This document shows, in pieces, positions 3,315 to 18,614 of a stretch of 32,261 nt of DNA; position 1 is the stretch's first letter, and each line of letters begins with the position of its first letter. The notes under the pieces were generated by a model. The model made no database searches. It worked only from the letters and a program-made list of their open reading frames with translations, and was not told the origin of the DNA. The stretch covers positions 1 through 32,261 of the forward strand of contig JAFEFZ010000088.1 of the NCBI GenBank assembly GCA_018240325.1, written 5' to 3'. The translations under genes and the position numbers were made by a program. The stretch comes from Pseudomonadota bacterium (GTDB lineage: Bacteria > Pseudomonadota > Gammaproteobacteria > Burkholderiales > Burkholderiaceae_C).

Positions 3315-3623
3315 ATGGAAAACGATCTGGCCCAGCGGATTGCCAGCAATCCGAAATACCAGGAGCTGAAAGCCAAGCGCTCCAGCTTCGGATGGAAACT
3401 GACGATCGCGATGCTCGTCGTGTACTACGGCTTCATCCTGCTGATCGCCTTCGACAAGGAGCTGCTCGCCACGCGCATGGGCAGCGGCGTGATGACCTGG
3501 GGCATGCCGATCGGCCTGGCGGTGATCGTGTTCACGATCGTGATCACCGCCATCTACGTGCGCCGCGCCAACAGCGAGTTCGACCAGCTGGCCGACCAGA
3601 TCAACAAGGCGGTGCTCAAGTGA
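3315..3623 (+). CDS. DUF485 small membrane protein (YjcH type)
   Basis: The 102-aa protein has a soluble start ([22 protein letters not shown]) with the N-P-x-Y-xx-L-xxx-R pattern of DUF485, then two membrane helices (about residues 28-47 and 58-80) and a basic C-terminal tail. DUF485 genes almost always sit just before an acetate/solute:sodium symporter gene, as yjcH before actP in Escherichia coli, and are thought to help that transporter. Here the symporter gene starts 26 bp downstream. ATG 3315 follows a strong ribosome binding site, AGGAGA, four bases away. Confidence 0.9.
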
Positions 3624-3649
3624 GCCGGCACCCCGACACGGAGACTTCC

Positions 3650-5365
3650 ATGAAGAAGCTGATCAAGCCGGCCCTCGCGCTGGCCGCGCTGCTGGGCGCC
3701 GGTGCGGCGTTGGCCGCCGGCGGCGACCTCGGCCAGGCCGAGAAGCAGGCCACCAACTGGACCGCGATCGCGATGTTCGCGATCTTCGTGGTCTTCACGC
3801 TGTTCATCACCAAGTGGGCCGCGGCCAAGACCAAGAGCGCGGCCGACTTCTACACCGCCGGCGGCGGCATCACCGGCTTCCAGAACGGCCTGGCGATCGC
3901 CGGCGACTACATGTCGGCGGCCTCGTTCCTGGGCATCTCGGCGGCGGTCATGGCCTCGGGCTTCGACGGGCTGATCTACTCGATCGGCTTCCTGGTCGGC
4001 TGGCCGGTGGTCACCTTCTTGCTGGCGGAGCGGCTGCGCAACCTCGGCAAGTTCACCTTCGCCGACGTGGCCGCGTTCCGCTTCGCGCAGACGCCGGTGC
4101 GCATCTTCGCCGCCAGCGGCACGCTGGTGGTGGTGGCCTTCTACCTGATCGCGCAGATGGTCGGCGCCGGCCAGCTGATCAAGCTGCTGTTCGGCCTGGA
4201 CTACATGTACGCGGTGATCATCGTCGGCGTGTTGATGATCATCTACGTGCTCTTCGGCGGCATGACGGCCACCACCTGGGTGCAGATCATCAAGGCGATC
4301 ATGCTGCTCGGCGGCGCCTCCTTCATGGCCTTCATGGTGATGGCGCAGTTCGGCTTCAGCCCCGAGGCGCTGTTCGCCAAGTCGGTCGAGATCAAGAGCA
4401 TGCTCGCCGAGCAGGGCGGCAAGACGCCCGAGGAGGCAGCCAAGATCGGCTTCTCGATCATGGGCCCGGGCGGCTTCGTGAAGGACCCGATCAGCGCGAT
4501 CAGCTTCGGCATGGCGCTGATGTTCGGCACCGCCGGGCTGCCGCACATCCTGATGCGCTTCTTCACCGTGCCCAACGCCCGCGAAGCGCGCAAGTCGGTG
4601 CTGTGGGCCACCACCTGGATCGGCTACTTCTACATCCTGACCTTCATCATCGGCTTCGGCGCGATCGTGTTCGTGCTCACCAACCCGCAGTTCCTCGACG
4701 CCAAGGGCGGCCTGATCGGCGGCAGCAACATGGCGGCGGTGCACCTGGCCAACGCGGTGGGCGGCAACGTCTTCCTCGGCTTCATCTCGGCGGTGGCCTT
4801 CGCGACCATCCTCGCGGTGGTGGCGGGCCTGACGGTGTCGGGCGCGTCGGCGGTGTCGCACGACCTGTACAGCACGGTGATCAAGGGCGGCAAGGCCGAC
4901 AGCAAGAGCGAACTGGCGGTCACGCGCATCACCACGGTGTGCCTGGGCATCATCGCGGTCATCCTGGGCATCGCCTTCGAGAAGCAGAACATCGCCTTCA
5001 TGGTCAGCCTGGCCTTCGCGATCGCCGCGTCGGCCAACTTCCCGGTGCTGCTGATGAGCGTGCTGTGGAAGGGCTGCACCACGCGCGGCGCGGTCATCGG
5101 CGGCTTCCTCGGGCTGATCAGCTCGGTGGTGCTGACGGTGGTGTCGCCGGCGGTCTGGGAAGCCACGCTCGGCAACCCCAAGGGATCGGCCTGGTTCCCG
5201 TACACCTCGCCGGCCCTGTTCTCGATGACCATCGGCTTCGTCGGCATCTGGCTGTTCTCGATCCTGGACGGCAGCAAGCGCGCCGCGCAGGACAAGGCCG
5301 GGTTCCTGGCGCAGCAGGTGCGCAGCGAGACCGGCATCGGCGCGGCCGGCGCGTCGGGCCACTGA
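3650..5365 (+). CDS. actP: Cation/acetate symporter ActP
   Basis: The 571-aa inner-membrane protein belongs to the sodium:solute symporter family. It starts with a cleavable-looking signal ([23 protein letters not shown]), as E. coli ActP does, followed by about 13 hydrophobic helices. Matching segments include [51 protein letters not shown] and [25 protein letters not shown]. ActP brings acetate and other short carboxylates into the cell with a cation. Its length is close to the 549 aa of E. coli ActP. ATG 3650 has GGAGA five bases upstream, and the gene forms an operon with the DUF485 gene. Confidence 0.93.
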
Positions 5366-5399: not shown

Positions 5400-5498
5400 G
5401 CACGCGATCCAACCGTGGCACTCCCGTTCACCCGGGCGGCCACGCCCGCAGGGACTGCGCGGCCGACGAGGCCCGCGGTCCCTTCTGCGTTGCGGCCC

Positions 5499-7331
5499 AT
5501 GAGCGAGACCTTCGACTTCACCGTTGCGCCCTTCGACAGCCTGAATGCGGCGCAGCAGGCGCTGGTGCAGGCCACGGCCGACCGCCGCAGCTTCGAGCCC
5601 GGCGATCCGCTGCTGACGCCGGAGATGGAGCCGACCCATGCCTACCTGATCGCATCGGGGCAGGTGCGGCGCGAGGCGGCGACGCTGCCCGAGGCGACCT
5701 TCGGCCCGGGCGAGTTGCTCGGCGCGCGCGCGGTGCTCGCCCAGCGCGCGAGCAGCGTGTCGGTGGCGCAGGGCGCGGTCTCGGCCTGGCGCATCCCGCG
5801 CGCGACGCTGCAGTCGCTGGTGTCGGCCAACCCGGCGTTCTGCGCCGCGCTGTTCAGCGACATCGCGCGCCGGCTGTCGCGCCAGGAGGCACGCGCCGGC
5901 CAGCGCGAATTCCTGTCGCTGATCATGGCGCGGGTGCGCGACGCCTACGTGCGCAAGCCCTTCTATCTCGACGGCGCGGTCGACCTGGTGGCCGCCTGCG
6001 CGGCCATGGCCGAGGCCGGCCAGAGCAACGCGCTGGTGCGCGACGGCGGGCGCCTCGGCATGTTCACCACCACCGACCTGCGCGACGCGCTGCTCGTGCG
6101 TGATGCCGCCGGCCGCCCGCGCTTGCCGCAGCAGGTGGCGGTGCGCGAGGTCGCGCACTTCGAGCTGATCAGCGTGGCCGCCGACGCCGAGCTGTTCGAG
6201 GCGCTGCTGCTGATGCTGCGCCACCGCGTGCACCGCGTGCTGGTGCGCGAGGGCGACGCGGTGGCCGGCATCCTGAGCCAGCTCGACCTGATGAGCTTCG
6301 TGTCGAACCACTCGCACCTGATCGCGCTGCAGGCCGAGCAGGCCGCGAGCCTGGCCGAGCTCAAGGCCGCGGCGCTGCAGCTCGACAGCCTGGTGGCGCT
6401 GCTGCACAGCGGCGGCGTGAAGATCGAGCTGATCAGCCGCATGGTGCGCGTGCTGAACGCGCAGGTGCTCGCCCGCGCCTGGTCCTTCGTCGCGCCGCCC
6501 GAGCTGGCCGCCAACAGCTGCCTGCTGGTGATGGGCAGCGAAGGCCGCGGCGAGCAGATCCTCAAGACCGACCAGGACAACGCGCTGCTGCTGCGCGACG
6601 GCTTCGAGTGCGCCGACCTGCCGCGCATCGCCGAGGCCTTCAACCGCGCGCTGATCGATTTCGGCTGGCCGCGCTGCCCCGGCGACATCATGCTGACCAA
6701 CCCGATGTGGCGCGCGCCGCTGACGGCCTTCCGCGAGCGCATCCGCGGCTGGATCTACGGCAGCGAGGCCGACGGGCCGATGCACCTGGCGATCTTCATG
6801 GACGCGGCCGCGGTCGCGGGCGACGCATCGCTGCTCGAGCAGGCGCGGCGCTACGCCTTCGAGATCCTGCCCGGCAACGACGCCTTCCTCGCGCGCTTCG
6901 CGGCCGCGGCCGACCAGTTCGACGAGCCCTCGGTCGGCTGGTGGGCGCGGCTGACCGCGCCGCGCGCGCGCGACGAGGCGCCCTTCGACCTGAAGAAGCT
7001 CGGCACCTTCCCGATCGTGCACGGGGTGCGCGCGCTCGCGCTGGCCGCGCAGCTGCCGCAGCTGTCGACGGTGGAGCGGCTGCACGCGCTGGTCGAGCGC
7101 GGCCGCATCGACGCCGCCCTGGCGCGCGACCTGGCCGAGACGCTGCACGTGGTGATGGGCCTGAAGCTCAAGAACAACCTGGCGCAGCGCCAGGCCGGCC
7201 GCCCGGTGGACAACCTGGTGCGCATGGCCGACCTGAGCACCCTCGAGCGCGACCGGCTGCAGGACGCGCTGGGCATCATCAAGCGCTTCCGCCAGGTGCT
7301 GCAGCAGCGCTTCAAGCTCGGCGCGCTGTAG
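5499..7331 (+). CDS. cNMP-binding / CBS pair / DUF294 nucleotidyltransferase-like protein
   Basis: The 610-aa soluble protein starts at ATG 5499. A GTG at 5415 in the same frame would add 28 residues without recognisable content. Domains in order: a cyclic-nucleotide-binding-like beta-roll (about residues 15-125), a CBS pair (about 155-285, with GRLGMFTTTDLRDALL and VAGILSQLDLMSFV), then DUF294. The last has GSEGRGEQ (346-353) and TDQDNALL (357-364), i.e. the G-S...D-x-D core of GlnD-type nucleotidyltransferases, and a helical C-terminal DUF294 extension. The family is common next to acetate-type symporters and DnaQ-like exonucleases, and its substrate is not settled. Here it follows actP by 133 bp. 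It probably senses a nucleotide and modifies a target; that role is inferred. Confidence 0.85.
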   Translation: MSETFDFTVAPFDSLNAAQQALVQATADRRSFEPGDPLLTPEMEPTHAYLIASGQVRREAATLPEATFGPGELLGARAVLAQRASSVSVAQGAVSAWRIPRATLQSLVSANPAFCAALFSDIARRLSRQEARAGQREFLSLIMARVRDAYVRKPFYLDGAVDLVAACAAMAEAGQSNALVRDGGRLGMFTTTDLRDALLVRDAAGRPRLPQQVAVREVAHFELISVAADAELFEALLLMLRHRVHRVLVREGDAVAGILSQLDLMSFVSNHSHLIALQAEQAASLAELKAAALQLDSLVALLHSGGVKIELISRMVRVLNAQVLARAWSFVAPPELAANSCLLVMGSEGRGEQILKTDQDNALLLRDGFECADLPRIAEAFNRALIDFGWPRCPGDIMLTNPMWRAPLTAFRERIRGWIYGSEADGPMHLAIFMDAAAVAGDASLLEQARRYAFEILPGNDAFLARFAAAADQFDEPSVGWWARLTAPRARDEAPFDLKKLGTFPIVHGVRALALAAQLPQLSTVERLHALVERGRIDAALARDLAETLHVVMGLKLKNNLAQRQAGRPVDNLVRMADLSTLERDRLQDALGIIKRFRQVLQQRFKLGAL

Positions 7332-7633: not shown

Positions 7634-10369
7634 ATGACCTCCGGCGCCCTGGTCGTCGCCGTCGCCTTCGCCTACCTGTCGCTGCTGTTCGCGGTGGCGA
7701 GCTTCGGCGACCGGCGCGCCGCCGCCGGCCGCTCGATCATCGCCAACCCCTGGGTCTACGCGCTGTCGATGGCGGTGTACTGCAGCGCGTGGACCTACTT
7801 CGGCAGCGTCGGCCGCGCCGCCACCGGCGGCGTGTGGTTCCTGCCGATCTACCTGGGGCCGATGCTGACGATGACGCTGGCGTGGCTGGTGCTGCGCAAG
7901 ATGATCCGGATCTCGCGCGCCTACCGCATCACCTCGATCGCCGACTTCGTCGCCAGCCGCTACGGCAAGAGCCCCACCGTCGCCGGCCTGGTGACGCTGA
8001 TCACGGTGGTCGGGCTGGTGCCGTACATCGCGCTGCAGCTCAAGGGCATCGAGGTCGCCTACACGCTGATGACCACGCCCGCGGGCGGTGCGGCCGCCGC
8101 GCCCGCCGCCTGGTGGCAGGACAGCACCTTCTACGTGGCGCTGGCGCTGGCCGGCTTCACCATCGTCTTCGGCGCGCGCCACCTCGACAGCGCCGAGCGC
8201 TACGAGGGCATGGTCGCGGCGATCGCCTTCGAGTCGCTGGTCAAGCTGCTGGCCTTCCTGGCGGTGGGCGCCTTCGTCGTGTGGGGCCTGTTCGACGGCC
8301 TCGCCGACCTGTTCGCGCGCGCGCAGGCCGTGCCCGAGCTGGCGCGGCTGCTCACGCTCGACCAGGGCCGGGGCTTCGCCTACCCGCAGTGGTTCGCGAT
8401 GACGATGCTGTCGGCCCTGAGCGTGATCGTGCTGCCGCGCCAGTTCCAGATGATGGTGGTCGAGAACGTCGACGAGCGCCACCTGAAGCGCGCCGCCTGG
8501 GTGTTCCCGCTGTACCTGCTGCTGATCAACCTGTTCGTGCTGCCGATCGCGCTGGCCGGGCTGCTGCACTTCGGCGGCGGCGCCAACCCCGAGGGCTTCG
8601 TGCTGACGCTGCCGCAGGCCGCGGGGCAGCACGCGCTGGCGCTGCTGGCCTTCGTCGGCGGGCTGTCGGCGGCCACCGGCATGGTCATCGTCGAGGCGAT
8701 CGCGGTGGCGACGATGGTCTGCAACGACCTGGTGATGCCGGCGCTGCTGCGCACCCGGCGCTTCCAGGCAGCGCAGGCGGCGCACGGCGGCGACTTGAGC
8801 GGCTACCTGCTGGGCATCCGGCGCAGCGCCATCGTCGCGATCCTGCTGCTGGGCTACGTGTACTACCGGCTGGCGGGGGACGCCTACGCGCTGGTGGGCA
8901 TCGGCCTGATCAGCTTCGCCGCCGTGGCGCAGTTCGCGCCGGCGATGCTCGGCGGCATGTACTGGAAGGGCGGCACGCGCGCCGGCGCGCTCGCCGGCAT
9001 GGGAGCCGGCTTCACGCTGTGGATCTACACGCTGCTGCTGCCGTCCTTCGCCAAGTCGGGCTGGCTGGGGCCGGATTTCCTCGAGCACGGCGTCTTCGGC
9101 ATCGACCTGCTCAAGCCCGAGCAACTGTTCGGCCTGAAGGGGCTGGACTACCTGACCCATTCGCTGTTCTGGAGCCTGCTGGCGAATGTCGCGCTGTACG
9201 CCGGCGTGTCGCTGGCGCGCCCGCCGGCGGCGCGCGAAACCAGCCAGGCACTGCTGTTCGTCGACGTCTTCCGCCGCACCGCCAGCACCGGCCCGGTGTT
9301 CTGGCGCGGGCGCGCGCGCGTGGCCGACCTGCTGCCGCTGCTCGGCCGCTTCCTCGGGCTGGAGCGCGCGCGCGCGCTGTTCGACGAACACGCGCGCGAA
9401 CGCGGCCTGAAGCACCGCGACGCGCTGCCGCCCGATGCACGCCTGGTGCAGTTCGTCGAGACCCAGCTGGCCGGCGCGATCGGCAGCGCGTCGGCGCGCA
9501 CGATGGTGGCCTCGGTGGTCGAGGAGGAATCGCTGGGGCTGGACGACGTGATGCGCATCCTCGACGAGGCCTCGCAGATCCGCGCCTATTCGCGCCAGCT
9601 CGAGCAGGTCACCGGCGAATTGAAGCGCGCCAACGAGCAGTTGAAGAGCCTGGACAAGCTCAAGGACGATTTCATGTCGTCGGTCACGCACGAGCTGCGC
9701 ACGCCGCTGACTTCGATCCGTGCGCTCACCGAGCTGATGCGCGACGACCCCGAGATGCCCGCCGAGCAGCGCCAGGAGTTCCTGGGCATCGTCGTCGCCG
9801 AGACCGAGCGCCTGAGCCGCCTGGTCAACCAGGTGCTGGACATGGCCAAGATCGAGTCGGGCAACGCCGAGTGGCGGGCCGCCGACGTCGACCTGAAGGC
9901 GCTGGTCGAGCATGCGGCCCTGACCACGCGCGAGATGTTCCGCGAGCGCCGCGCGGCGCTGGAGCTCGCGCTGCCGCCCCACGTGCCGACGATCCGCGCC
10001 GACCCCGACCGGCTGACGCAGGTGCTGCTGAACCTGCTGAGCAACGCCGCCAAGTTCCTGCCGGCCGAAGGCGGGCGCGTGCAGCTGCGCCTGCAGGCCG
10101 GCGCCGATGTGCTGCGCGTCGAGGTGCAGGACAACGGCCCGGGCGTGCCGCCCGAGCAGCGCGCGCTGATCTTCGAGAAGTTTCGCCAGGGCGGCGACGC
10201 GCTCAACCGGCCGCAGGGCACCGGGCTGGGCTTGCCGATCAGCCGCCAGATCGTCGAACATTTCGGCGGGCGCATGGGGCTGCGCGATGACAGTGCGCAT
10301 GGCGCATGCTTCTGGTTCGAACTACCCTTGCACGCGGCCGCCGCGGCAGACGCAGGAGAGCACCGATGA
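7634..10369 (+). CDS. Histidine kinase with sodium:solute symporter sensor domain (CbrA/CrbS type)
   Basis: The 911-aa membrane protein has about 13 helices of a sodium:solute symporter domain (about residues 1-525), then a STAC linker (about 535-640, SQALLFVDVFRRTAS...), a short coiled coil and a complete kinase core. The H-box is SVTHELRTPLTSIR with His686; the N-box is DRLTQVLLNLLSNAAKF; the G-boxes are DNGPGVP and GTGLGLPISRQIVEHFGG. There is no PAS domain. CbrA and CrbS of this type control carbon use and acetate metabolism (acs) in gammaproteobacteria. Here actP lies 2.3 kb upstream, which supports sensing of acetate or another carboxylate, but the ligand is inferred. Its stop overlaps the next ATG by 4 bp (ATGA). 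Confidence 0.92.
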   Translation: MTSGALVVAVAFAYLSLLFAVASFGDRRAAAGRSIIANPWVYALSMAVYCSAWTYFGSVGRAATGGVWFLPIYLGPMLTMTLAWLVLRKMIRISRAYRITSIADFVASRYGKSPTVAGLVTLITVVGLVPYIALQLKGIEVAYTLMTTPAGGAAAAPAAWWQDSTFYVALALAGFTIVFGARHLDSAERYEGMVAAIAFESLVKLLAFLAVGAFVVWGLFDGLADLFARAQAVPELARLLTLDQGRGFAYPQWFAMTMLSALSVIVLPRQFQMMVVENVDERHLKRAAWVFPLYLLLINLFVLPIALAGLLHFGGGANPEGFVLTLPQAAGQHALALLAFVGGLSAATGMVIVEAIAVATMVCNDLVMPALLRTRRFQAAQAAHGGDLSGYLLGIRRSAIVAILLLGYVYYRLAGDAYALVGIGLISFAAVAQFAPAMLGGMYWKGGTRAGALAGMGAGFTLWIYTLLLPSFAKSGWLGPDFLEHGVFGIDLLKPEQLFGLKGLDYLTHSLFWSLLANVALYAGVSLARPPAARETSQALLFVDVFRRTASTGPVFWRGRARVADLLPLLGRFLGLERARALFDEHARERGLKHRDALPPDARLVQFVETQLAGAIGSASARTMVASVVEEESLGLDDVMRILDEASQIRAYSRQLEQVTGELKRANEQLKSLDKLKDDFMSSVTHELRTPLTSIRALTELMRDDPEMPAEQRQEFLGIVVAETERLSRLVNQVLDMAKIESGNAEWRAADVDLKALVEHAALTTREMFRERRAALELALPPHVPTIRADPDRLTQVLLNLLSNAAKFLPAEGGRVQLRLQAGADVLRVEVQDNGPGVPPEQRALIFEKFRQGGDALNRPQGTGLGLPISRQIVEHFGGRMGLRDDSAHGACFWFELPLHAAAAADAGEHR

Positions 10370-10737
10370 GCCACAAGATCCTGATCGCCGACGACGAGCC
10401 GAACATCGTGGTCTCGCTGAAGTACCTGCTCGAGCGCGGCGGCTACCAGGTGCTGGTGGCGCGCGACGGCCAGGAGGCGATCGACGCGATCCGGCGCGAG
10501 CGCCCGGCGCTGGTGCTGCTCGACGTGATGATGCCGAAGAAGAGCGGCCACGAGGTCTGCGCCGAGCTGCGCGCCGACGAGGCGGTGCGCGACACGCTGG
10601 TGCTGATGCTCAGCGCCAAGGGCCGCGACACCGACATCGACAAGGGCCTGGGGGTGGGCGCCGACGCCTACATGACCAAGCCCTTCTCCACCAAGGAACT
10701 GGCGGCCAAGGTCGCCGAGATGCTGGGCGCAGCGTGA
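10366..10737 (+). CDS. Stand-alone receiver-domain response regulator
   Basis: The 123-aa protein is a single CheY-like receiver and nothing else. The acidic pocket is Asp9-Asp10, the phosphorylation site Asp53 (LVLLDVMMPKKSG), and the conserved Ser83 and Lys105 (TKPFS) are present. ATG 10366 lies within the end of the kinase gene (ATGA overlap) and has AGGAGAG at 10354-10360. The gene order makes it the partner of the symporter-domain kinase. CbrB and CrbR, the usual partners, carry DNA-binding domains; this protein has none. It must act by protein contact or pass on the phosphate. The gene encoding a kinase-like exonuclease begins 13 bp downstream. Confidence 0.92.
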   Translation: MSHKILIADDEPNIVVSLKYLLERGGYQVLVARDGQEAIDAIRRERPALVLLDVMMPKKSGHEVCAELRADEAVRDTLVLMLSAKGRDTDIDKGLGVGADAYMTKPFSTKELAAKVAEMLGAA

Positions 10738-10750
10738 AGGCGGGCGGGCG

Positions 10751-12958
10751 TTGAAGGCGATCGACAAGGCGTTGGTGGGCGCGCTGCTCGCGCCCGGGCT
10801 GCTGCTGGCGCTGTTCGGCCTGGGCGGCGGCGCGTGGCTGTGGGCCACGCTCGAGCCGGCCGAGCGCGCGGTGCTCGCGCAGGTGCTGGCCACGCGCGGC
10901 ATGCTGCTGGTGCTGGTGGGGCTGGCGCTGTGGGGGCTGGCCGCCTGGGCCGTGAGCCGGCTGCACGCGCGCCACGTGGCCGCTGCCGGCCGGCTGCTCG
11001 AGCAGGTGCGCGCGCGTGCCGGCGGCGACATCGCCCAGCCGATCGAGCCCGCCGGCTCGGCGGCGCTGCGCGGCATCGGCGCCGCGGTGGACGAGCTCGT
11101 GCAGCAGCGCGCCGGCCTGCGCGGCGAGATGGCCGCCAAGGTGGCCGAGGCCGCGCGCCACATCGACCAGGAGCGCCAGCGGCTGGCCGCGCTGATGGCC
11201 GAGCTGACGCAGGCGGTGGTGGTGTGCAACCTGGACGGCCGCATCCTGCTGTACAACCAGCGCGCACGCGCGCAGTTCCGGTTGCTGTCGAGCGCGCCCG
11301 AGGTCGCGGCCGGCGCCGAGCTGATCGGCCTGGGGCGCTCGATCTACGCGGTGTTCGAGCGCCGCCTGGTGGCGCACGCGCTCGAGAACATCCAGCAGCG
11401 GCTGCAGCGCGGCGCCACGCACCCGACCGCGCAGTTCGTCACCAGCACCCGCGCCGGCCAGTTGCTGCGCGCGCTGATGACGCCGGTGCGCGCCGCCGAA
11501 GGCGGCGAATCGGCGGACGAAGCCGGCTCGGGCCCGGAGCTGCACGGCTTCGTGCTGATGCTCGACAACATCACGCGCGAGTTCGAGCAGGATTCGGCGC
11601 GCGACGCGCTGCTGCACGCCTTCACCGAAGGCACGCGCGGCTCGCTGGGCAACCTGCAGGCGGCGGTGGAGATGCTCGAGATGCCCGACATCGACGCCGA
11701 GATGCGCGAGCGCTTCCAGGCGGTGATCCGCGACGAGGTGCACCAGATGGGCGCGCGCGTGCAGGAGCTGGCCACGCGCGGCGCGCAGGACCTGCGCACG
11801 CGCTGGCCGCTGGAGGACATGCTCGGCGCCGACCTGCTGAGCGCCGCGCAGCGCCGCATCGAGGCGCTGGGCCTGCGCGTCGCGGCCGACGCGGTCGACC
11901 GCACGCTGTGGCTCAAGGTGGACAGCTTCTCGCTGCTGATGGCGCTGACCAGCCTGGCGGCGCGGCTGCACGGCGAGTACGACATCCAGCGCATCGAGCT
12001 GCGCCTGGCGCCGGCCGGCACCGCCGGTGACGCCAAGGCCGCGGCGCGCGCGCACCTGGACCTGCTGTGGGTCGGTCCGGCGATGAGCACCGAGACGGTG
12101 ATCGGCTGGGAGACCGAGCCGATGCGCGTGGGCGCCGACACCAGCCCGCTGTCGGTGCGCGACGTGGTGCAGCGCCACGGCGCCGAGGTCTGGTTCGAGC
12201 GCGAGCGCCTGCGCCATGCGGCCTTCTTCCGCTTCCTGCTGCCGCTGGCCGGCGCGCAGCCGGCGCTGGACGCCGACACCTTCGTGCGCAGCGACAGCCG
12301 CCCCGAGTACTACGACTTCGACCTGTTCGCGCAGACCGAGTCGAGCCGCGCGCTCGACGAGCGGCCGCTCGCCGAGCTGAGCTGCACCGTGTTCGACACC
12401 GAGACCACGGGGCTGAACCCGTCGCAGGGCGACGAGATCATCCAGATCGGCGCGACCCGCATCGTCGCCGGCAAGCTGCGCCGGCAGGAGAGCTTCGACC
12501 AGCTGGTCGACCCGCAGCGCGACATCCCGGCCGCCGGCATCCCGATCCACGGCATCGAGCCGTCGATGGTGCAGGGCCAGCCGACGATCGACACCGTGCT
12601 GCCCGCCTTCCACGCCTTCGCGCAGGACACGGTGCTGGTCGGCCACAACGCGGCCTTCGACATGCGCTTCCTGCAGCTGAAGGAAGAGCGCACCGGCGTG
12701 CGCTTCGACCAGCCGGTGCTGGACACGCTGCTGCTGGCCGCGGTGGTGCAGCCGAACCAGGAATCGCACGGGCTCGAGGCGATCGCCGAGCGCCTGGGCG
12801 TGACCGTGATCGGCCGCCACACGGCGCTGGGCGACGCGATCGTCACCGCCGAGGTGTTCCTGAAGCTGATCCCGCTGCTGCAGGCGCAGGGCATCCACAC
12901 GCTGGGCCAGGCGCGCGAGGCGGCGCAGAAGACGCTGTACGCGCGGCTGAACTACTGA
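10751..12958 (+). CDS. Membrane pseudo-histidine-kinase fused to DnaQ-type 3'-5' exonuclease
   Basis: The 735-aa protein has two N-terminal helices (about 10-32 and 50-68), a HAMP/coil segment (70-150), a PAS-like segment (150-250), a kinase-like body (272-500) and a DEDDh exonuclease (543-710). In the body, THELRTPL of true kinases is replaced by TEGTRGSL (292-299), so the phospho-His is Glu293. The N-box asparagines are Ser401 and Arg405, and the glycines of the G2 box are lost in SPLSVRDVVQRHG. The exonuclease has all five catalytic residues: Asp549 and Glu551 (FDTETTGL), Asp637 (GHNAAFDMRFL), His690 and Asp695 (HTALGDA). It probably cuts nucleic acid or nucleotides under membrane or receiver control. 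The start is TTG 10751 with GAAGG upstream; a later start at Met51 is possible. Confidence 0.85.
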   Translation: MKAIDKALVGALLAPGLLLALFGLGGGAWLWATLEPAERAVLAQVLATRGMLLVLVGLALWGLAAWAVSRLHARHVAAAGRLLEQVRARAGGDIAQPIEPAGSAALRGIGAAVDELVQQRAGLRGEMAAKVAEAARHIDQERQRLAALMAELTQAVVVCNLDGRILLYNQRARAQFRLLSSAPEVAAGAELIGLGRSIYAVFERRLVAHALENIQQRLQRGATHPTAQFVTSTRAGQLLRALMTPVRAAEGGESADEAGSGPELHGFVLMLDNITREFEQDSARDALLHAFTEGTRGSLGNLQAAVEMLEMPDIDAEMRERFQAVIRDEVHQMGARVQELATRGAQDLRTRWPLEDMLGADLLSAAQRRIEALGLRVAADAVDRTLWLKVDSFSLLMALTSLAARLHGEYDIQRIELRLAPAGTAGDAKAAARAHLDLLWVGPAMSTETVIGWETEPMRVGADTSPLSVRDVVQRHGAEVWFERERLRHAAFFRFLLPLAGAQPALDADTFVRSDSRPEYYDFDLFAQTESSRALDERPLAELSCTVFDTETTGLNPSQGDEIIQIGATRIVAGKLRRQESFDQLVDPQRDIPAAGIPIHGIEPSMVQGQPTIDTVLPAFHAFAQDTVLVGHNAAFDMRFLQLKEERTGVRFDQPVLDTLLLAAVVQPNQESHGLEAIAERLGVTVIGRHTALGDAIVTAEVFLKLIPLLQAQGIHTLGQAREAAQKTLYARLNY

Positions 12959-13051: not shown

Positions 13052-13690
13052 TCAGCCCTGCCCGACCACGATCACGTGCAGGAAGCCGGGCCCGTGCGCG
13101 CCGCGCACGTAGCTGCCCTCGATGTCGGTGGTGCCACTGGGGCCGGTGATCAGGATCGCGTTGCGCGGCACGGCGCCCGCGGCCAGGCGCTCGGCGTAGT
13201 CTTCCAGATAGGGCACGAGCGTCGCCGCGCGCAGCACCACCACGTGGTGCAGCGCCAGGAAGGACAGCAGGATCGGCGTGCGCGGCCCGGAATGCACGAT
13301 CAGCGAGCCGCTTTCGGCGATGCCGCCTTCGGCCAGGCCCAGGGCCACCGGCTCGTCGGGCGCCGGCGTGTCGTGATGCTCGATGCCGCTCCAGTCGAGC
13401 GCGGCGAATTCGGCCGCCGGCTGGATCGCGACCGACGGCTGCAGCCCATGCGCCTGCAGGTAGCGGCGCAGCGCCTGCGGCACCTCGGCCAGCGCGGCGA
13501 CGCGCTCCAGCGTGGTGCCCAGCGCCGCCGCCTTGGCCTCGAAGGCCTCGGAAAGCGTGGCGCCGGCCAGCGCCGGGCGCGCGGCGCCGGCATCGGCCAG
13601 CAGCGCCGCGGCCTCGGCGGCGACGGCTGCTGCCGGGCGCGGCGGCGCCGCGGCGCGCACGGCGGCGAGGATGCGGTCGCGGGCCTTCAT
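13052..13690 (-). CDS. lutC: Lactate utilization protein C (LutC/LldG)
   Basis: The 212-aa protein is the third part of the LutABC complex that oxidises L-lactate to pyruvate in the cytoplasm with Fe-S centres. It has an Ala-rich N-terminus and the LutC/YkgG core with LGLAEGGIAESGSLIVHSGPR, LSFLALHHVVVL and AILITGPSGTTDIEGSYVRGAHGP. ATG 13690 overlaps the lutB stop by 4 bp (ATGA) and has AAGGGG upstream. The gene ends the operon and converges with the exonuclease gene, with 93 bp between the stops; that gap holds a GC palindrome (13019-13032) but no T-run terminator. Confidence 0.92.
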   Translation of the reverse strand: MKARDRILAAVRAAAPPRPAAAVAAEAAALLADAGAARPALAGATLSEAFEAKAAALGTTLERVAALAEVPQALRRYLQAHGLQPSVAIQPAAEFAALDWSGIEHHDTPAPDEPVALGLAEGGIAESGSLIVHSGPRTPILLSFLALHHVVVLRAATLVPYLEDYAERLAAGAVPRNAILITGPSGTTDIEGSYVRGAHGPGFLHVIVVGQG

Positions 13691-15111
13691 CGCGGCCCCT
13701 TCTTGTGCTGCGCGCGGTACTGCTCCATGAAGGTGCGGCCCGGCGGGCGCGGCAGGTCGCGGTACGCAGTCCAGCCGCCGGCCAGCGGCAGGCTGGCGAT
13801 CCAGCCGCCGCGGCCGAACAGCCGCAGCACGCGCACGCCGATGCGGCTGCCCAGCCGGTACAGCGCCGGGCGGCGCGCGACCTGCGCCCACACGCCCAGC
13901 CCCAGGCGCAGCGTGCCGGGCTCCAGCCGCTCGCGCCAGCTGCGCGTGCGCCACGCGCGCAGCAGCGTCGGCACCGGGATGCCGACCGGGCAGACCTCGG
14001 CGCAGCGGCCGTTCATCGTGCACGCATGCGGCAGGTCGCGCGACGCGGCCAGGCCGTCGAGCACCGGCGTCAGCACCGATCCCATCGGGCCGGGGTAGGT
14101 GCCGCCGTAGGCGTGCCCGCCGATCTGGCGGTAGACGACGCAGTGGTTCATGCAGGCGCCGCAGCGGATGCAGCGCAGCATCTCGCGGAACTCGTCGGCC
14201 AGCATGCGCGTGCGGCCGTTGTCGACCAGCACGATGTGCATCTGCTCGGGCCCGTCGGCGTCGCCGGTGCGCTTCGGGCCGCAGTGGAAGGTGGTGTACT
14301 GCGTCAGCTCGCCGCCGGTGGCCGATCGCACCAGCAGCCGCAGCAGCGCGAAGGCGTGGGCGGTCGAGGGCACGATCTTCTCGATGCCGGCGGTCACGAT
14401 GTGCACGCGCGGCGGCGTGGTGGTCAGCTCGGCGTTGCCCTCGTTGGTGACGGTGCAGGTGGCGCCGGTGTCGGCGACCAGGAAGTTGGCGCCCGAGATG
14501 CCGACGTCGGCGCTCAGGAACTTGGCACGCAACTGGCGGCGCGCGCTGCGCACCATCGTCGCCGGGTCGTCGGCCTCGGGCGGCGGATGGTGGGCGGCGT
14601 GGAACAGCTCGGCCACCTGCTCGCGCGTGCGGTGCATCGCCGGCCACACGATGTGCGACGGCGCTTCGCCGGCCAGCTGGATGATGTGCTCGGCCAGGTC
14701 GGTCTCGACGCGCTCGATGCCGGCATCGGCGAGCGCGTGCGGCAGGCCGATCTCCTCGCCCAGCATCGACTTGGAGCGCGTGACCCGCTTCGCCTTCGCC
14801 TCCAGGCAGATGCGCGTGACGATGGCGCGCGCCTCGGCGTCGTCGGCCGCCCAGTGCACCTGGGCGCCGGACGCGGCGGCGTTGCGCTCGAACATCTCCA
14901 GGTAGTGGGCGAGGTTGGCGATCACGTGGTCCTTGATCGCCTTGCCGCGTGCGCGCGCGGCTTCGAATTCGGGGAAGGCCGCGACCGCGGCGGCACGCTT
15001 GCGCTCGGCGTTGCCGGTGGTGCGATCGATGGCCAGCTTCAGCGTGCGGTCGGCCAGCGCGGCGCTGACGCGCTGCTTGAAGGGCGGCTTGGCGGCGTCG
15101 TGGGTGTGCAT
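13687..15111 (-). CDS. lutB: Lactate utilization iron-sulfur protein B (LutB/LldF)
   Basis: The 474-aa protein is the ferredoxin-like subunit of the LutABC lactate oxidation complex. The N-terminal two thirds have the LUD fold, with AKRVTRSKSMLGEEIGLPHAL, LSADVGISGANFLVADTGA and NEGNAELTTTPPRVHIV. The C-terminal part carries two cysteine clusters for [4Fe-4S] centres: CIRCGACMNHCVVY and CTMNGRCAEVCPVGIP. A DUF3390-like tail follows. ATG 15111 begins 2 bp after the lutA stop with GAGGAGG about 8 bases upstream. The frame stays open to 15636 without meaning. Length matches the family. Confidence 0.94.
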   Translation of the reverse strand: MHTHDAAKPPFKQRVSAALADRTLKLAIDRTTGNAERKRAAAVAAFPEFEAARARGKAIKDHVIANLAHYLEMFERNAAASGAQVHWAADDAEARAIVTRICLEAKAKRVTRSKSMLGEEIGLPHALADAGIERVETDLAEHIIQLAGEAPSHIVWPAMHRTREQVAELFHAAHHPPPEADDPATMVRSARRQLRAKFLSADVGISGANFLVADTGATCTVTNEGNAELTTTPPRVHIVTAGIEKIVPSTAHAFALLRLLVRSATGGELTQYTTFHCGPKRTGDADGPEQMHIVLVDNGRTRMLADEFREMLRCIRCGACMNHCVVYRQIGGHAYGGTYPGPMGSVLTPVLDGLAASRDLPHACTMNGRCAEVCPVGIPVPTLLRAWRTRSWRERLEPGTLRLGLGVWAQVARRPALYRLGSRIGVRVLRLFGRGGWIASLPLAGGWTAYRDLPRPPGRTFMEQYRAQHKKGPR

Positions 15112-15113
15112 CT

Positions 15114-15887
15114 TCAGCCCTCCTCGCCGATGGCCGGCTCGCCGGCGCCGGCACGGCCGGCCAGCACCTCGATGGTGTGGAAGCAGCGCGTCTTCGCGCC
15201 GCGGCGGTGCAGCTTGCCGGCCATGTTCATCAGGCAGCCCAGGTCGCCGGCCAGCAGCAGATCGGCGCCGGTCTTCTCGATCGCCTCGGCCTTCTCGCCG
15301 ACGATGGCGTTGGAGATGTCCGAGTACTTGACGCAGAAGGTGCCGCCGAAGCCGCAGCAGACGTCGTTGCCTTCGAGCGCGCGCAGCTGCAGCCCCTCGA
15401 CCTGCGCGAGCAGCCGGCGCGGCTGCGCCGCCACGCCCAGCTCGCGCAGGCCGGCGCAGCTGTCGTGGTAGGTGGCCGAGGCATCCAGGCGCCGGCCCCG
15501 GGGCTCGAAGCGCATCACGTCGGCCAGGAAGCTGGTGATCTCGTGCGTCTTCGCGGCCATCGCCCGGGCGCGCGCGGCCCAGGCCGGGTCGTCGGCCAGC
15601 AGCTCGGGGTAGGCGTGCACCATCGTGCCCGCGCACGAGCCCGAGGGCAGCACGACGTAGTCGAAGCCCTCGAAGGCGGCGATGGTCCGGCGCGCCAGCA
15701 CCGCCGAGTCGGCGGCGTCGCCGCTGTTCAGCGCCGGCTGGCCGCAGCAGGTCTGCGCCGGCGGCACCTCGACGCGGCAGCCGGCCTCTTCCAGCAGCCG
15801 GATCGCGGCGAAGCCGATCTGCGGGCGCATCGCGTCGACCAGGCAGGTCACGAACAGGCCGACGGTGGGGTGGGACGGAGCAGACAT
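15114..15887 (-). CDS. lutA: Lactate utilization protein A (LutA/LldE)
   Basis: The 257-aa protein is the first subunit of the LutABC lactate oxidation complex. It has two cysteine-rich CCG domains typical of heterodisulfide-reductase-like subunits: CCGQPALNSGD near residue 47 and CCGFGGTFCVKYSDIS near residue 175, with LPSGSCAGTMVHAYPEL and YHDSCAGLRELG between. These bind an Fe-S cluster and pass electrons to the quinone pool or another acceptor. ATG 15887 has TGAGGAG seven bases upstream, and that site overlaps the end of the permease gene, 10 bp away. Confidence 0.94.
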   Translation of the reverse strand: MSAPSHPTVGLFVTCLVDAMRPQIGFAAIRLLEEAGCRVEVPPAQTCCGQPALNSGDAADSAVLARRTIAAFEGFDYVVLPSGSCAGTMVHAYPELLADDPAWAARARAMAAKTHEITSFLADVMRFEPRGRRLDASATYHDSCAGLRELGVAAQPRRLLAQVEGLQLRALEGNDVCCGFGGTFCVKYSDISNAIVGEKAEAIEKTGADLLLAGDLGCLMNMAGKLHRRGAKTRCFHTIEVLAGRAGAGEPAIGEEG

Positions 15888-15897
15888 GGCGGGCTCC

Positions 15898-17559
15898 TCA
15901 GTGCACGACCAGCAGCGTGAACGGCCACACGTAGGCCTGCATCGTCACGAACACGCCCACCAGGCAGGCCAGCGCGATCGAGTGGAAGAACACGTAGCGC
16001 AGGATGTCGCCCTCGTGGTTGAACCAGCGCGTCGCGGTGGAGGCCACCACGATGGATTGCGCGTCGATCATCTTGCCCATCACGCCGCCCGAGCTGTTGG
16101 CCGCGCCCATCAGGTTGGGCGACAGGTGCAGCTGCTCGGCCGCCACCTTCTGCATGCCGCCGAAGAGCACGTTCGACGCGGTGTCGGAGCCGGTCAGCGC
16201 CACCCCCATCCAGCCCATCAGCGTGCCGAAGAACGGGTACAGCATGCCGGTGTTGGCGAAAGCCAGGCCGAGCGTGGTGTCGGTGCCCGAGAAGCGCGTC
16301 ACCGTGCCCAGCGCCAGCATCAGCACGATCGTCAGCAGCGAATAGCGCACCAGCCAGGTGGTCTTGAAGAAGGTGCGCACGATGTCCACCGGCTTGTACT
16401 TCATGACGAGCGCGCTGATCACCGCCGCCAGCAGGATGCCGGTGCCGGTGGCCGACAGCAGGTTGAAGCTGTAGACCGCGCCTTCGGGGTGCGGCTCGGG
16501 CACCACCGGCGGCGACTTCAGCACCAGGTTGTGCAGCCCCTCGATCGGAATGGACGGCGCGAAGATGCCGTTGAGCCAGGCCTTGACCGGCGGCAGTCCC
16601 CAGACGAACACGAAGACCGACAGGATGACCCAGGGCGTCCACGCGGCGACCAGCGCCGCGCGGTCGTGGCGCACCACCGGCTGCGGCGGCTTGGCCTCGG
16701 CCGCGCTCGGGTCGTGCCCGCGCAGCGACGGCGAAGTCCAGACCTTCTTCGGCTGCCACACGCGCAGGAAGGCGATCAGGCACAGCATCGAGACGATGGC
16801 GGCGATGATGTCCACCAGCTCCGGCCCGATGAAGTTGGACACCAGGAACTGCGGAATCGCGAAGGACAGGCCCGTCACCAGGATCGCGGGCCAGATCTCC
16901 ATCATCGCCTTGCGCCCGGCGAAGGCCCAGATCAGCCAGAAGGGCACCAGCAGCGAGAAGAACGGCAGCTGGCGGCCGATCATCGCGGTGACTTCCATCA
17001 GGTCGTAGCCGTGCACCTTGGCCAGCGTGATCACCGGCGTGCCCAGCGCGCCGAAGGCCACCGGCGCGGTGTTGGCGATCAGCGACAGCCCCGACGCCGC
17101 CAGCGGCGAGAAGCCCAGGCCGATCAGGATGGCCGCGGTCACCGCCACCGGGGTGCCGAATCCGGCCGCGCCCTCGAAGAAGGCGCCGAAGCAGAAGGCG
17201 ATCAGCAGCAGCTGGATGCGCCGGTCTTCGGTGATGCCCGACAGCGAATCCTGCAGCACCTTGAAGCTGCCGTTCTGCTCGGTCAGCTGGTGCAGGAAGA
17301 TGATGTTGAGCACGATCCAGCCGATGGGCAGCAGGCCGACGAAGCCGCCCAGCATCGCCGCGCGGCCCGCCATGCCGGCCGGCATGCCGTAGGCGAAGAC
17401 CGCCACCAGCAGCGCGGCCAGCAGGCCCATGCCGGCGGCGATGTGCGCCTTGATGTGGAACAGCCCCAGGGCGCCCAGCATCACCACCACCGGAATCGCG
17501 GCCAGCGCGGTGGACACGAACATGTTGCCGAAGGGGTCGTAGATCTGCTGCCAGGTCAT
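15898..17559 (-). CDS. lctP: L-lactate permease
   Basis: The 553-aa inner-membrane protein of the LctP/LldP family carries L-lactate into the cell with protons. It has about 13 hydrophobic helices and family segments such as MLGGFVGLLPIGWIVLNIIFLHQL, FCFGAFFEGAAGFGTPVAV and NTAPVAFGALGTPVITLAKVHG; near the C-terminus it has MGWMGVALTGSDTASNVLFGGMQ and NSSGGVMGKMIDAQSIVVA. The length is almost that of E. coli LldP (551 aa). ATG 17559 follows AGGAGA. It is the first gene of a permease-lutA-lutB-lutC operon with very short spacings. Confidence 0.95.
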   Translation of the reverse strand: MTWQQIYDPFGNMFVSTALAAIPVVVMLGALGLFHIKAHIAAGMGLLAALLVAVFAYGMPAGMAGRAAMLGGFVGLLPIGWIVLNIIFLHQLTEQNGSFKVLQDSLSGITEDRRIQLLLIAFCFGAFFEGAAGFGTPVAVTAAILIGLGFSPLAASGLSLIANTAPVAFGALGTPVITLAKVHGYDLMEVTAMIGRQLPFFSLLVPFWLIWAFAGRKAMMEIWPAILVTGLSFAIPQFLVSNFIGPELVDIIAAIVSMLCLIAFLRVWQPKKVWTSPSLRGHDPSAAEAKPPQPVVRHDRAALVAAWTPWVILSVFVFVWGLPPVKAWLNGIFAPSIPIEGLHNLVLKSPPVVPEPHPEGAVYSFNLLSATGTGILLAAVISALVMKYKPVDIVRTFFKTTWLVRYSLLTIVLMLALGTVTRFSGTDTTLGLAFANTGMLYPFFGTLMGWMGVALTGSDTASNVLFGGMQKVAAEQLHLSPNLMGAANSSGGVMGKMIDAQSIVVASTATRWFNHEGDILRYVFFHSIALACLVGVFVTMQAYVWPFTLLVVH

Positions 17560-17711
17560 GGCCGGTCTCCTGTGCGGTCGTCGCTATTCGAAACCCGGCA
17601 GCGCCGGGCGCAGGGGGCGCACTGTAGGAGCGCCGAAATGTGCGCTGCGTGAAATCCGGTGGCGCCGCGCGTGAATGTTTTTCAGCATCCGGGCACCCGC
17701 CGCGCGTGCGC
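17560..17711 (-). promoter_or_regulatory. Leader region of the lactate operon
   Basis: The 152-bp gap between the LysR gene and the permease gene must hold the lactate operon promoter, unless the regulator is co-transcribed. Two AT-richer copies of a TTCACGC motif, each preceded by AT-rich bases, occur on the minus strand near 17650-17675 and could be regulator sites. An inverted repeat CCCGGC/GCCGGG with loop of three (17594-17608), followed by TTT on the minus strand, may be a weak terminator for the LysR gene or a leader hairpin. Confidence 0.35.
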
Positions 17712-18614
17712 CTACCGCAGCGCCTGCCGCAGCCAGTCGACGAAGGCCGCGCATTCCCAGCGCTGCAGCGCGCCCGGCTTCCAGCACAGGAAGTAGTCGT
17801 GCGGCGAGCGCACGCTGCGCGGCGACAGCCGCAGCAGCCGGCCGCTGTCCAGCCAGCTGCGGCCCAGCTTCAGCCGCATCAGCGCCACGCCGAAGCCGGC
17901 CACCGCGGCGTCCAGCACCAGGCCCAGGTCGTTGAACTGGCTGCCCGAGGCGGGCTCGGGCAGGGCCACGCCGCAGGCGCGAAACCAGGTGCGCCACGGC
18001 TCCAGCGGCGTGCGGATCAGGTGGGCGCGGACGATCGACTCCTGCGTCTCGAAGCCGTCGTCGAAGGGCCCGGCCGCGCTCAGGTATTCGGGGCTGCACA
18101 CCGGGCAGACCTCGTCCGACAGCAGGTGCATCGACTCGCGGTCGGCGAACGGGCCGGTGCCGAAGCGCAGTTCGAGGTCGGCGTCCTCGGCGGTGACGTT
18201 GGCGACCGGGATCGTCACCTGCAGGATCAGCTCGATGTCCGGGTAGGCGTGGCGGAACAGCGCCAGGCGCGGCAGCAGCAGCTGGCGCGAGAAGGTGGGC
18301 GTGACCGCGACGCGCAGCCGCGTGGCGGCCGGCCTGGCCGCGCCGTCGCCGGCGCGTGCCGGGGGCTGCAGCGCGGCCAGCGCCTCGCGCACCCGCGCCA
18401 GGTAGGCCGCGCCCTCGGTGCTGGGCAGGTAGTCGCCGCGCGCGGCGAACAGCCGCAGGCCGAGCTGCGACTCCAGCTGGCGCATGCGGTGGCTGACTGC
18501 GCTGGGCGTCACGTTCAGCTCGGCCGCGGCCAGCGTCACGCTGCGCAGGCGCGCCACCGCCTCGAAGGCGAGCAGTGCCTGGACCGGTGGAATGCGCACG
18601 GCGGGGGCTGGCAT
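17712..18614 (-). CDS. LysR-family transcriptional regulator (GcvA-like)
   Basis: The 300-aa protein has an N-terminal helix-turn-helix (about residues 10-70): LLAFEAVARLRSVTLAAAEL, TPSAVSHRMRQLESQLGLRLF. A periplasmic-binding-protein-like effector domain follows (about 97-300). The HTH and the SPEYLSA and DLGLVLDAAVAGFGVAL segments place it with the GcvA-like LysR proteins. It lies directly upstream of the lactate permease gene on the same strand, so it is the likely lactate-responsive regulator. Classical LysR genes are divergent from their target; this one is co-directional. The effector is not known. ATG 18614 has only a weak ribosome binding site. Confidence 0.9.
   Translation of the reverse strand: MPAPAVRIPPVQALLAFEAVARLRSVTLAAAELNVTPSAVSHRMRQLESQLGLRLFAARGDYLPSTEGAAYLARVREALAALQPPARAGDGAARPAATRLRVAVTPTFSRQLLLPRLALFRHAYPDIELILQVTIPVANVTAEDADLELRFGTGPFADRESMHLLSDEVCPVCSPEYLSAAGPFDDGFETQESIVRAHLIRTPLEPWRTWFRACGVALPEPASGSQFNDLGLVLDAAVAGFGVALMRLKLGRSWLDSGRLLRLSPRSVRSPHDYFLCWKPGALQRWECAAFVDWLRQALR

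Follow-up and report, generated by a model that had tools for sequence, protein, structure and literature searches.

To our knowledge few pseudo-histidine kinases have been described, and these act on other proteins. NifL acts on NifA by binding and carries no nuclease. DivL of Caulobacter binds the phosphorylated single-domain receiver DivK (DivK~P) and senses it through its DHp domain; passages of PMC4211667 on this interaction report that residue R553, three positions after Y550, is required, an R553A change disrupting the binding of DivK, and that lineages without DivK frequently lack the DHp-CA part of DivL. On the side of transporter-fused kinases, the SLC5-STAC kinases of the CrbS/CrbR and RpuS/RpuR systems are associated with acetate and pyruvate; CrbR and RpuR are LuxR-family regulators according to the portion of PMC9100948 that deals with them, and an excerpt of PMC5715377 places a CrbR motif in the promoter of the gene for Pflu5625, a DUF294-type protein. 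In the literature that we searched (few subscription papers and no preprints) no signalling protein of the design analysed here was found described, and an exonuclease as the output of a pseudo-histidine kinase was likewise not found there.

Layout of the protein and its kinase-like body

The window, the whole 32,261-nucleotide stretch that was analysed, comes from a genome of 4.18 Mb and encodes on its plus strand (10751..12958) a protein of 735 amino acids that begins with TTG; among seven homologues checked, one has TTG as well and five others have ATG at the same place. The best-scoring named relative is from a Rubrivivax metagenome bin (76% identity). A preliminary description of this DNA gave the protein two membrane helices, a HAMP or coil region and a PAS domain ahead of a kinase-like body and an exonuclease, and the analysis confirmed an arrangement of two membrane helices, PAS, histidine-kinase-like DHp-CA body and DEDDh exonuclease, all in the plus-strand frame. 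Hydropathy and the helices of the structure model bear out the membrane helices (approximately residues 7-30 and 40-71, 10769..10963, with a short loop between them), and a weak PAS domain match and the model agree on a PAS-like domain at residues 141-269 (11171..11557). The HAMP domain received no support from Pfam, and residues 72-140 (10964..11170) are called here, from the model, a coil or HAMP-like connector. There follow a DHp-like helical hairpin (residues 270-346, 11558..11788), a degenerate ATPase-like (CA) domain (residues 347-505, 11789..12265), the conserved linker SRPEYYDFDLF (residues 516-526, 12296..12328) and a PolC/DnaQ-like DEDDh 3'-5' exonuclease domain (residues 544-720, 12380..12910). 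The full-length model has a pLDDT of 77 and a pTM of 0.39, so it does not fix the mutual placement of these domains.

The kinase body of the window protein has no Pfam match, and among 23 family members the body touches HisKA in four and HATPase_c in two (E <= 0.1), so that it would be missed if Pfam were used alone. A PDB search with a profile of residues 270-505 (23 homologues) yields WalK/HK853-type kinases at 6e-6 to 1e-4, with Glu293 sitting on the histidine in the 4u7n alignment; Protein A repeats score better in the same search (9e-8 and 2e-6), over a single helical stretch. With the full-length model, Foldseek puts WalK first (2e-16) and has LvrB and NifL among the matches listed. Because the whole-model structure search was crowded with exonucleases, the kinase part was also folded separately, and all 50 structural matches listed for this model (40-row alignment, pLDDT 92.4, pTM 0.75) are to histidine kinases or to proteins resembling them, with DivL among them. 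In many of these the r.m.s.d. over both domains is large, which we take to be a hinge. Model and matches thus give the body the DHp-CA fold of a canonical histidine kinase, as the preliminary description had proposed.

The motifs of a working kinase have gone from this fold. They were followed in 194 homologues, obtained from 248 loci by excluding as duplicates 52 that shared an identical stretch of 80 residues, which left 196 distinct proteins, and then the two copies of the window's own protein. Position 293, said earlier to hold Glu in place of the H-box histidine, is Glu in 140 and Asp in 27 (together 167/194), another residue in 25 and a gap in 2; none of the 194 has the phospho-acceptor His there. 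The asparagines at the two N-box positions, also said to be lost, survive in 1/194 and 2/194, and position 440, where we placed the G1 Asp by hand, is Trp in 184/194. The G boxes, judged by eye, are lost, in line with the earlier remark that the G2 glycines are gone. Arg296, at H+3, is kept in 180/194; live kinases, too, usually have an Arg at this place in the H-box, and for that reason it is not specific to pseudokinases. In a closer set, all 95 alignment rows, query included, carry Glu293 and Arg296 together with the five catalytic residues of the nuclease. The kinase of this protein would, on its sequence, be dead.

The exonuclease domain has a very different record. It matches RNase_T (PF00929) at E 1.2e-35 and has the fold and the five catalytic residues of a DEDDh exonuclease (Asp549, Glu551, Asp637, His690 and Asp695, as first listed in the preliminary description), and all five are kept in 191/194 homologues, the three exceptions (L145-L147) forming one lineage. 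The nuclease is probably live, and selection has maintained it while the kinase was let go. With the fold retained, no His at position 293 and the nuclease residues preserved, the earlier view that a nuclease output took the place of phosphotransfer is a fair one. The nearest solved relatives of the domain are the PolC, DinG and epsilon proofreading exonucleases, which act on DNA in proofreading or processing, and these speak for a 3'-5' exonuclease of DNA or RNA that is tuned by nutrients or redox state and has nothing to do with DUF294 chemistry, for example in RNA/DNA trimming at the membrane. We hold this possible, if on balance not probable: linkage to a symporter, a DUF294 protein and a transporter-fused kinase (below) would be unexpected of an enzyme with a general part in repair or processing. 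A role in defence was considered and set aside, in that the PADLOC matches were to DEDDh-type models and were limited to the exonuclease part.

Searches of sampled genomes show that exonuclease-pseudokinase proteins are a real and widespread family, for which no name was found in the searched literature. In the window's class 20/369 genomes match at 1e-15, its own genome included, and in the phylum 120/398 match at 1e-10, many of the latter being partial matches to apparently ordinary kinases. Hits that reach 1e-50 or better and cover almost the full profile occur both inside and outside the window's class, and the family spans at least two classes of Pseudomonadota. It is also present on 19 plasmid records that match at least 80% of the query, with hosts that include Paracoccus denitrificans, P. 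pantotrophus, P. aminovorans and Cupriavidus necator; the Paracoccus copies are mostly annotated "exonuclease domain-containing protein" and one is annotated "DNA polymerase III subunit epsilon".

The neighbouring kinase and stand-alone receiver

The gene lies at the end of a plus-strand cluster whose members suggest a mechanism and did not figure in the preliminary description: immediately upstream, a receiver gene and that of a kinase that looks live, and in the same cluster a DUF294 gene. The stand-alone response-regulator receiver (10366..10737) has a start that overlaps the kinase stop (ATGA). The kinase (7634..10369) has HisKA and HATPase_c domains with H, N, G1 and G2 motifs by eye. Further upstream are a cNMP-CBS-DUF294-DUF294_C nucleotidyltransferase (5415..7331, ORF bounds) and a sodium:solute symporter (3392..5365, ORF bounds, true start probably internal; Pfam SSF at 3e-116) that is presumably ActP-like. 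The membrane part of the kinase matches the solved "histidine kinase" 10ed_A at 2e-73; comparison with Pfam SSF gave no hit up to E 10 and comparison with the window symporter no clear match, and the P. denitrificans relative of the kinase, at 65% identity, reaches SSF at 4e-4, which falls short of the cut-off. We call the kinase transporter-fused and CrbS-like because of the 10ed_A match and the SSF match of its relative. On the minus strand, lactate-utilisation-like, lactate permease-like and LysR genes (13052-18614) adjoin the module; LysR was confirmed by Pfam, and the LutABC-type and lactate permease names are our assumption from the translations.

The same genes accompany the family elsewhere. 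Within 6 kb upstream and 5 kb downstream of 114 loci (45 of them from a homologue search that gave mostly Burkholderiales) there is a receiver at 99, DUF294 at 95, a window-type kinase in a frame of 750+ aa at 73 and a symporter-type match at 107, the last count including the membrane part of the kinase; none of the 114 is without any of the four. Where at least 3.5 kb upstream was available in the mostly-Burkholderiales search (67 loci), the receiver is present in the same orientation at 66 and the kinase at 64, and at 20 more distant loci the figures are 11 and 10. On plasmid 1 of P. denitrificans PD1222 (L302, 4005-10905) the module is an overlapping run, PDEN_RS25395 to PDEN_RS25415, in the order DUF294 protein, small ORF, kinase, 121-aa receiver and exonuclease protein (52% identical to the window's), each overlapping the next. 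Two genomes (L137 and L138) have two copies of the gene, one adjoining kinase and receiver (L153 and L154) and the other adjoining an oppositely oriented ActP-like symporter and no kinase or receiver. When the dead-body profile was run on six genomes, its best match outside the family was in 6/6 a frame of 900+ aa beside a copy of the exonuclease-protein gene (32.7-40.4 bits; the next match had 12-24 bits in four genomes), and all four of these frames that were compared with the window's kinase matched it. This likeness is compatible with a receiver surface common to both or with a tandem duplication, and it may reflect only common descent.

The hairpin and an adjacent receiver gene go together. 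The 194 homologues less eight with under 700 bp upstream and one fragment (L230) give 185 usable loci, of which 176 have a full hairpin, 165 of these with a receiver directly upstream on the same strand; the hairpin is truncated in nine, and none of the nine has an adjacent receiver (Fisher 3e-10, uncorrected for kinship). The 20 loci without an adjacent receiver are therefore nine with truncated and 11 with full hairpins; at one of the latter (L141) a kinase and a receiver are nearby in a different order. One receiver counted among the 165 (L201) is within a 1668-aa frame, and the hairpin there is seemingly frame-shifted. A tree of 109 proteins was built without the hairpin, with the loci of the mostly-Burkholderiales search thinned one in five and with L145-L147 and the loci below L025 excluded; on it parsimony counts 4 truncations and 11 changes in receiver adjacency, and every truncated tip is without an adjacent receiver, several nodes being weakly supported. 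Arg296 follows the same pattern, a receiver being adjacent in 162/172 loci with Arg and 3/13 without it (p = 0.03 among full hairpins alone). The adjacent receivers themselves have the phospho-Asp and Lys in 165/165 and the Thr/Ser in 164/165, and in 163/165 loci the protein runs on for no more than 19 residues past the best receiver match, which leaves no output domain there.

Three further observations bear on how this tie is to be read. Absence of the receiver from genomes with a truncated hairpin was considered and is unsupported: in the nine such genomes the best receiver elsewhere scores 77-102 bits, two being as similar as adjacent ones (adjacent receivers of six genomes of the same family score 96-105 bits), so the data show a loss of adjacency only. 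For 165 receiver-protein pairs (effective number 96), mutual information between alignment columns was not enriched in the hairpin, the top pairs being scattered over all regions. Lastly, L145-L147 (also L124-L126), one family, have lost exonuclease residues and retain the hairpin (58-59 of 59 positions), and immediately upstream L145-L147 have a weakly receiver-like gene (29-34 bits); L146 also has, within the same 19 kb, ORFs that we take to be ImuA-like and DnaE2-like. This lineage speaks for a dead body that strips or traps the receiver's phosphate, the exonuclease being incidental. Such a phosphatase or sink is nevertheless quite improbable given that the nuclease residues are so widely kept while the kinase motifs are lost, and that the exonuclease stays in the nine loci that lost the hairpin.

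The reading that we favour, with somewhat better than even confidence, is that the protein acts as a DivL-type pseudokinase, in which the phosphorylated receiver of the neighbouring kinase would dock on the dead DHp and gate the nuclease. The transporter-fused kinase would sense a solute (acetate or some similar monocarboxylate is probable) and phosphorylate the stand-alone receiver; this receiver, having no output domain, would dock on the dead hairpin as DivK~P does on DivL; the change on docking would be relayed by the CA-like domain and then the conserved linker to switch the exonuclease; and the PAS domain would be a second, intracellular input. Fold, loss of kinase motifs, nuclease residues, module and the tie between hairpin and receiver gene are observed by computation, receiver control of the exonuclease is likely, and from these we infer docking, the direction of switching, the sensed solute, and the activity and substrate of the nuclease. 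The neighbouring two-component system probably switches a nuclease and not a gene. The approximately four hairpin truncations, each where the receiver is not adjacent, are a natural experiment, and the docking idea is directly testable.

DUF294 and a possible substrate of the exonuclease

DUF294 is the other persistent partner of the gene, and the nuclease may therefore erase what DUF294 writes. By this tentative proposal, which we consider rather doubtful, DUF294 would nucleotidylate a protein or RNA at the symporter in the style of GlnD/GlnE, the exonuclease would remove the nucleotide, and the two-component arm would only tune the eraser; it extends receiver docking, and both can hold together. 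In principle, nucleotidylation could be undone by a DEDDh enzyme able to take a 5'-NMP off O-R. The window DUF294 keeps GSEGRGEQ...DQD, presumably the DUF294 catalytic motif. The section of PMC3710099 that treats DUF294_C groups it with GlnD/GlnE-type C-terminal domains. A literature search with a term that also catches DUF2946 brought to notice no work on DUF294 function.

Gene order gives this proposal most of its weight. Besides the 95 of 114 loci with DUF294 nearby, all eight truncated-hairpin loci of one family (L183-L186, L232-L235) have symporter and DUF294 genes in a row immediately upstream of the exonuclease gene on the same strand. Outside the family, 30 DUF294 loci (L252-L281) were taken as the best matches from the 55 of 185 genomes that were positive; in 22 of them the DUF294 frame is followed, after 108-198 bp and in the same orientation, by the start of a separate DEDD-type exonuclease gene. 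These separate enzymes have no membrane or kinase part and stand apart from the fused ones in the tree, so two exonuclease lineages pair with DUF294; derivation of the fused exonuclease from the separate kind was considered and is unsupported by the tree. Against the proposal, DUF294 is not seen in the available stretch at 19/114 loci, eight of the 30 DUF294 loci have no exonuclease within about 3.4 kb, the third catalytic acid is Glu and not Asp in 20/22 of the separate exonucleases, and operon linkage is no proof of opposing chemistry. Deletion of pflu5625, of DUF294 type, gave no phenotype in the excerpt of PMC5715377 that reports it. The link between writer and eraser is speculative, and the complete chain, from transporter-fused kinase through stand-alone receiver to a pseudokinase-tethered exonuclease that removes DUF294-written nucleotides from the transporter or a partner, is unlikely to hold in every step. 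If true, it would be a membrane nucleotidylation cycle for carboxylate uptake in at least two classes of Pseudomonadota. A large family in which a dead kinase is coupled to a nuclease would extend two-component signalling to a new class of output, would provide a target for the stand-alone receivers next to these transporter-fused kinases, and would offer a handle on DUF294 nucleotidyltransferases.

Comparison with known systems

The 735-residue protein shares with DivL a histidine kinase fold with a replaced phospho-site and a stand-alone receiver partner to which it is genetically tied (adjacent at 165/185 loci), and Arg296 after Glu293 is in the same place as R553 after Tyr550. It differs in that DivL, by the passages of PMC4211667 on its motifs, apparently keeps the H, N, G1, F and G2 boxes except for the His, whereas here the N-box and G1 positions are lost; and DivL acts on the kinase CckA, whereas the output here is a fused exonuclease. 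NifL (Foldseek match 9qq6) has in common with it a PAS domain and a histidine-kinase-like body. The kinase of the adjoining gene looks as if it may be of the CrbS and RpuS kind, through the 10ed_A match of its membrane part and the weak SSF match of its 65%-identical relative, and the receiver differs from CrbR and RpuR in having, at the locus, no output domain. Finally, the exonucleases of PolC, DnaQ and DinG have the same fold and the same five catalytic residues, but they sit in polymerases or helicases, and here the domain is fused to a membrane pseudokinase.
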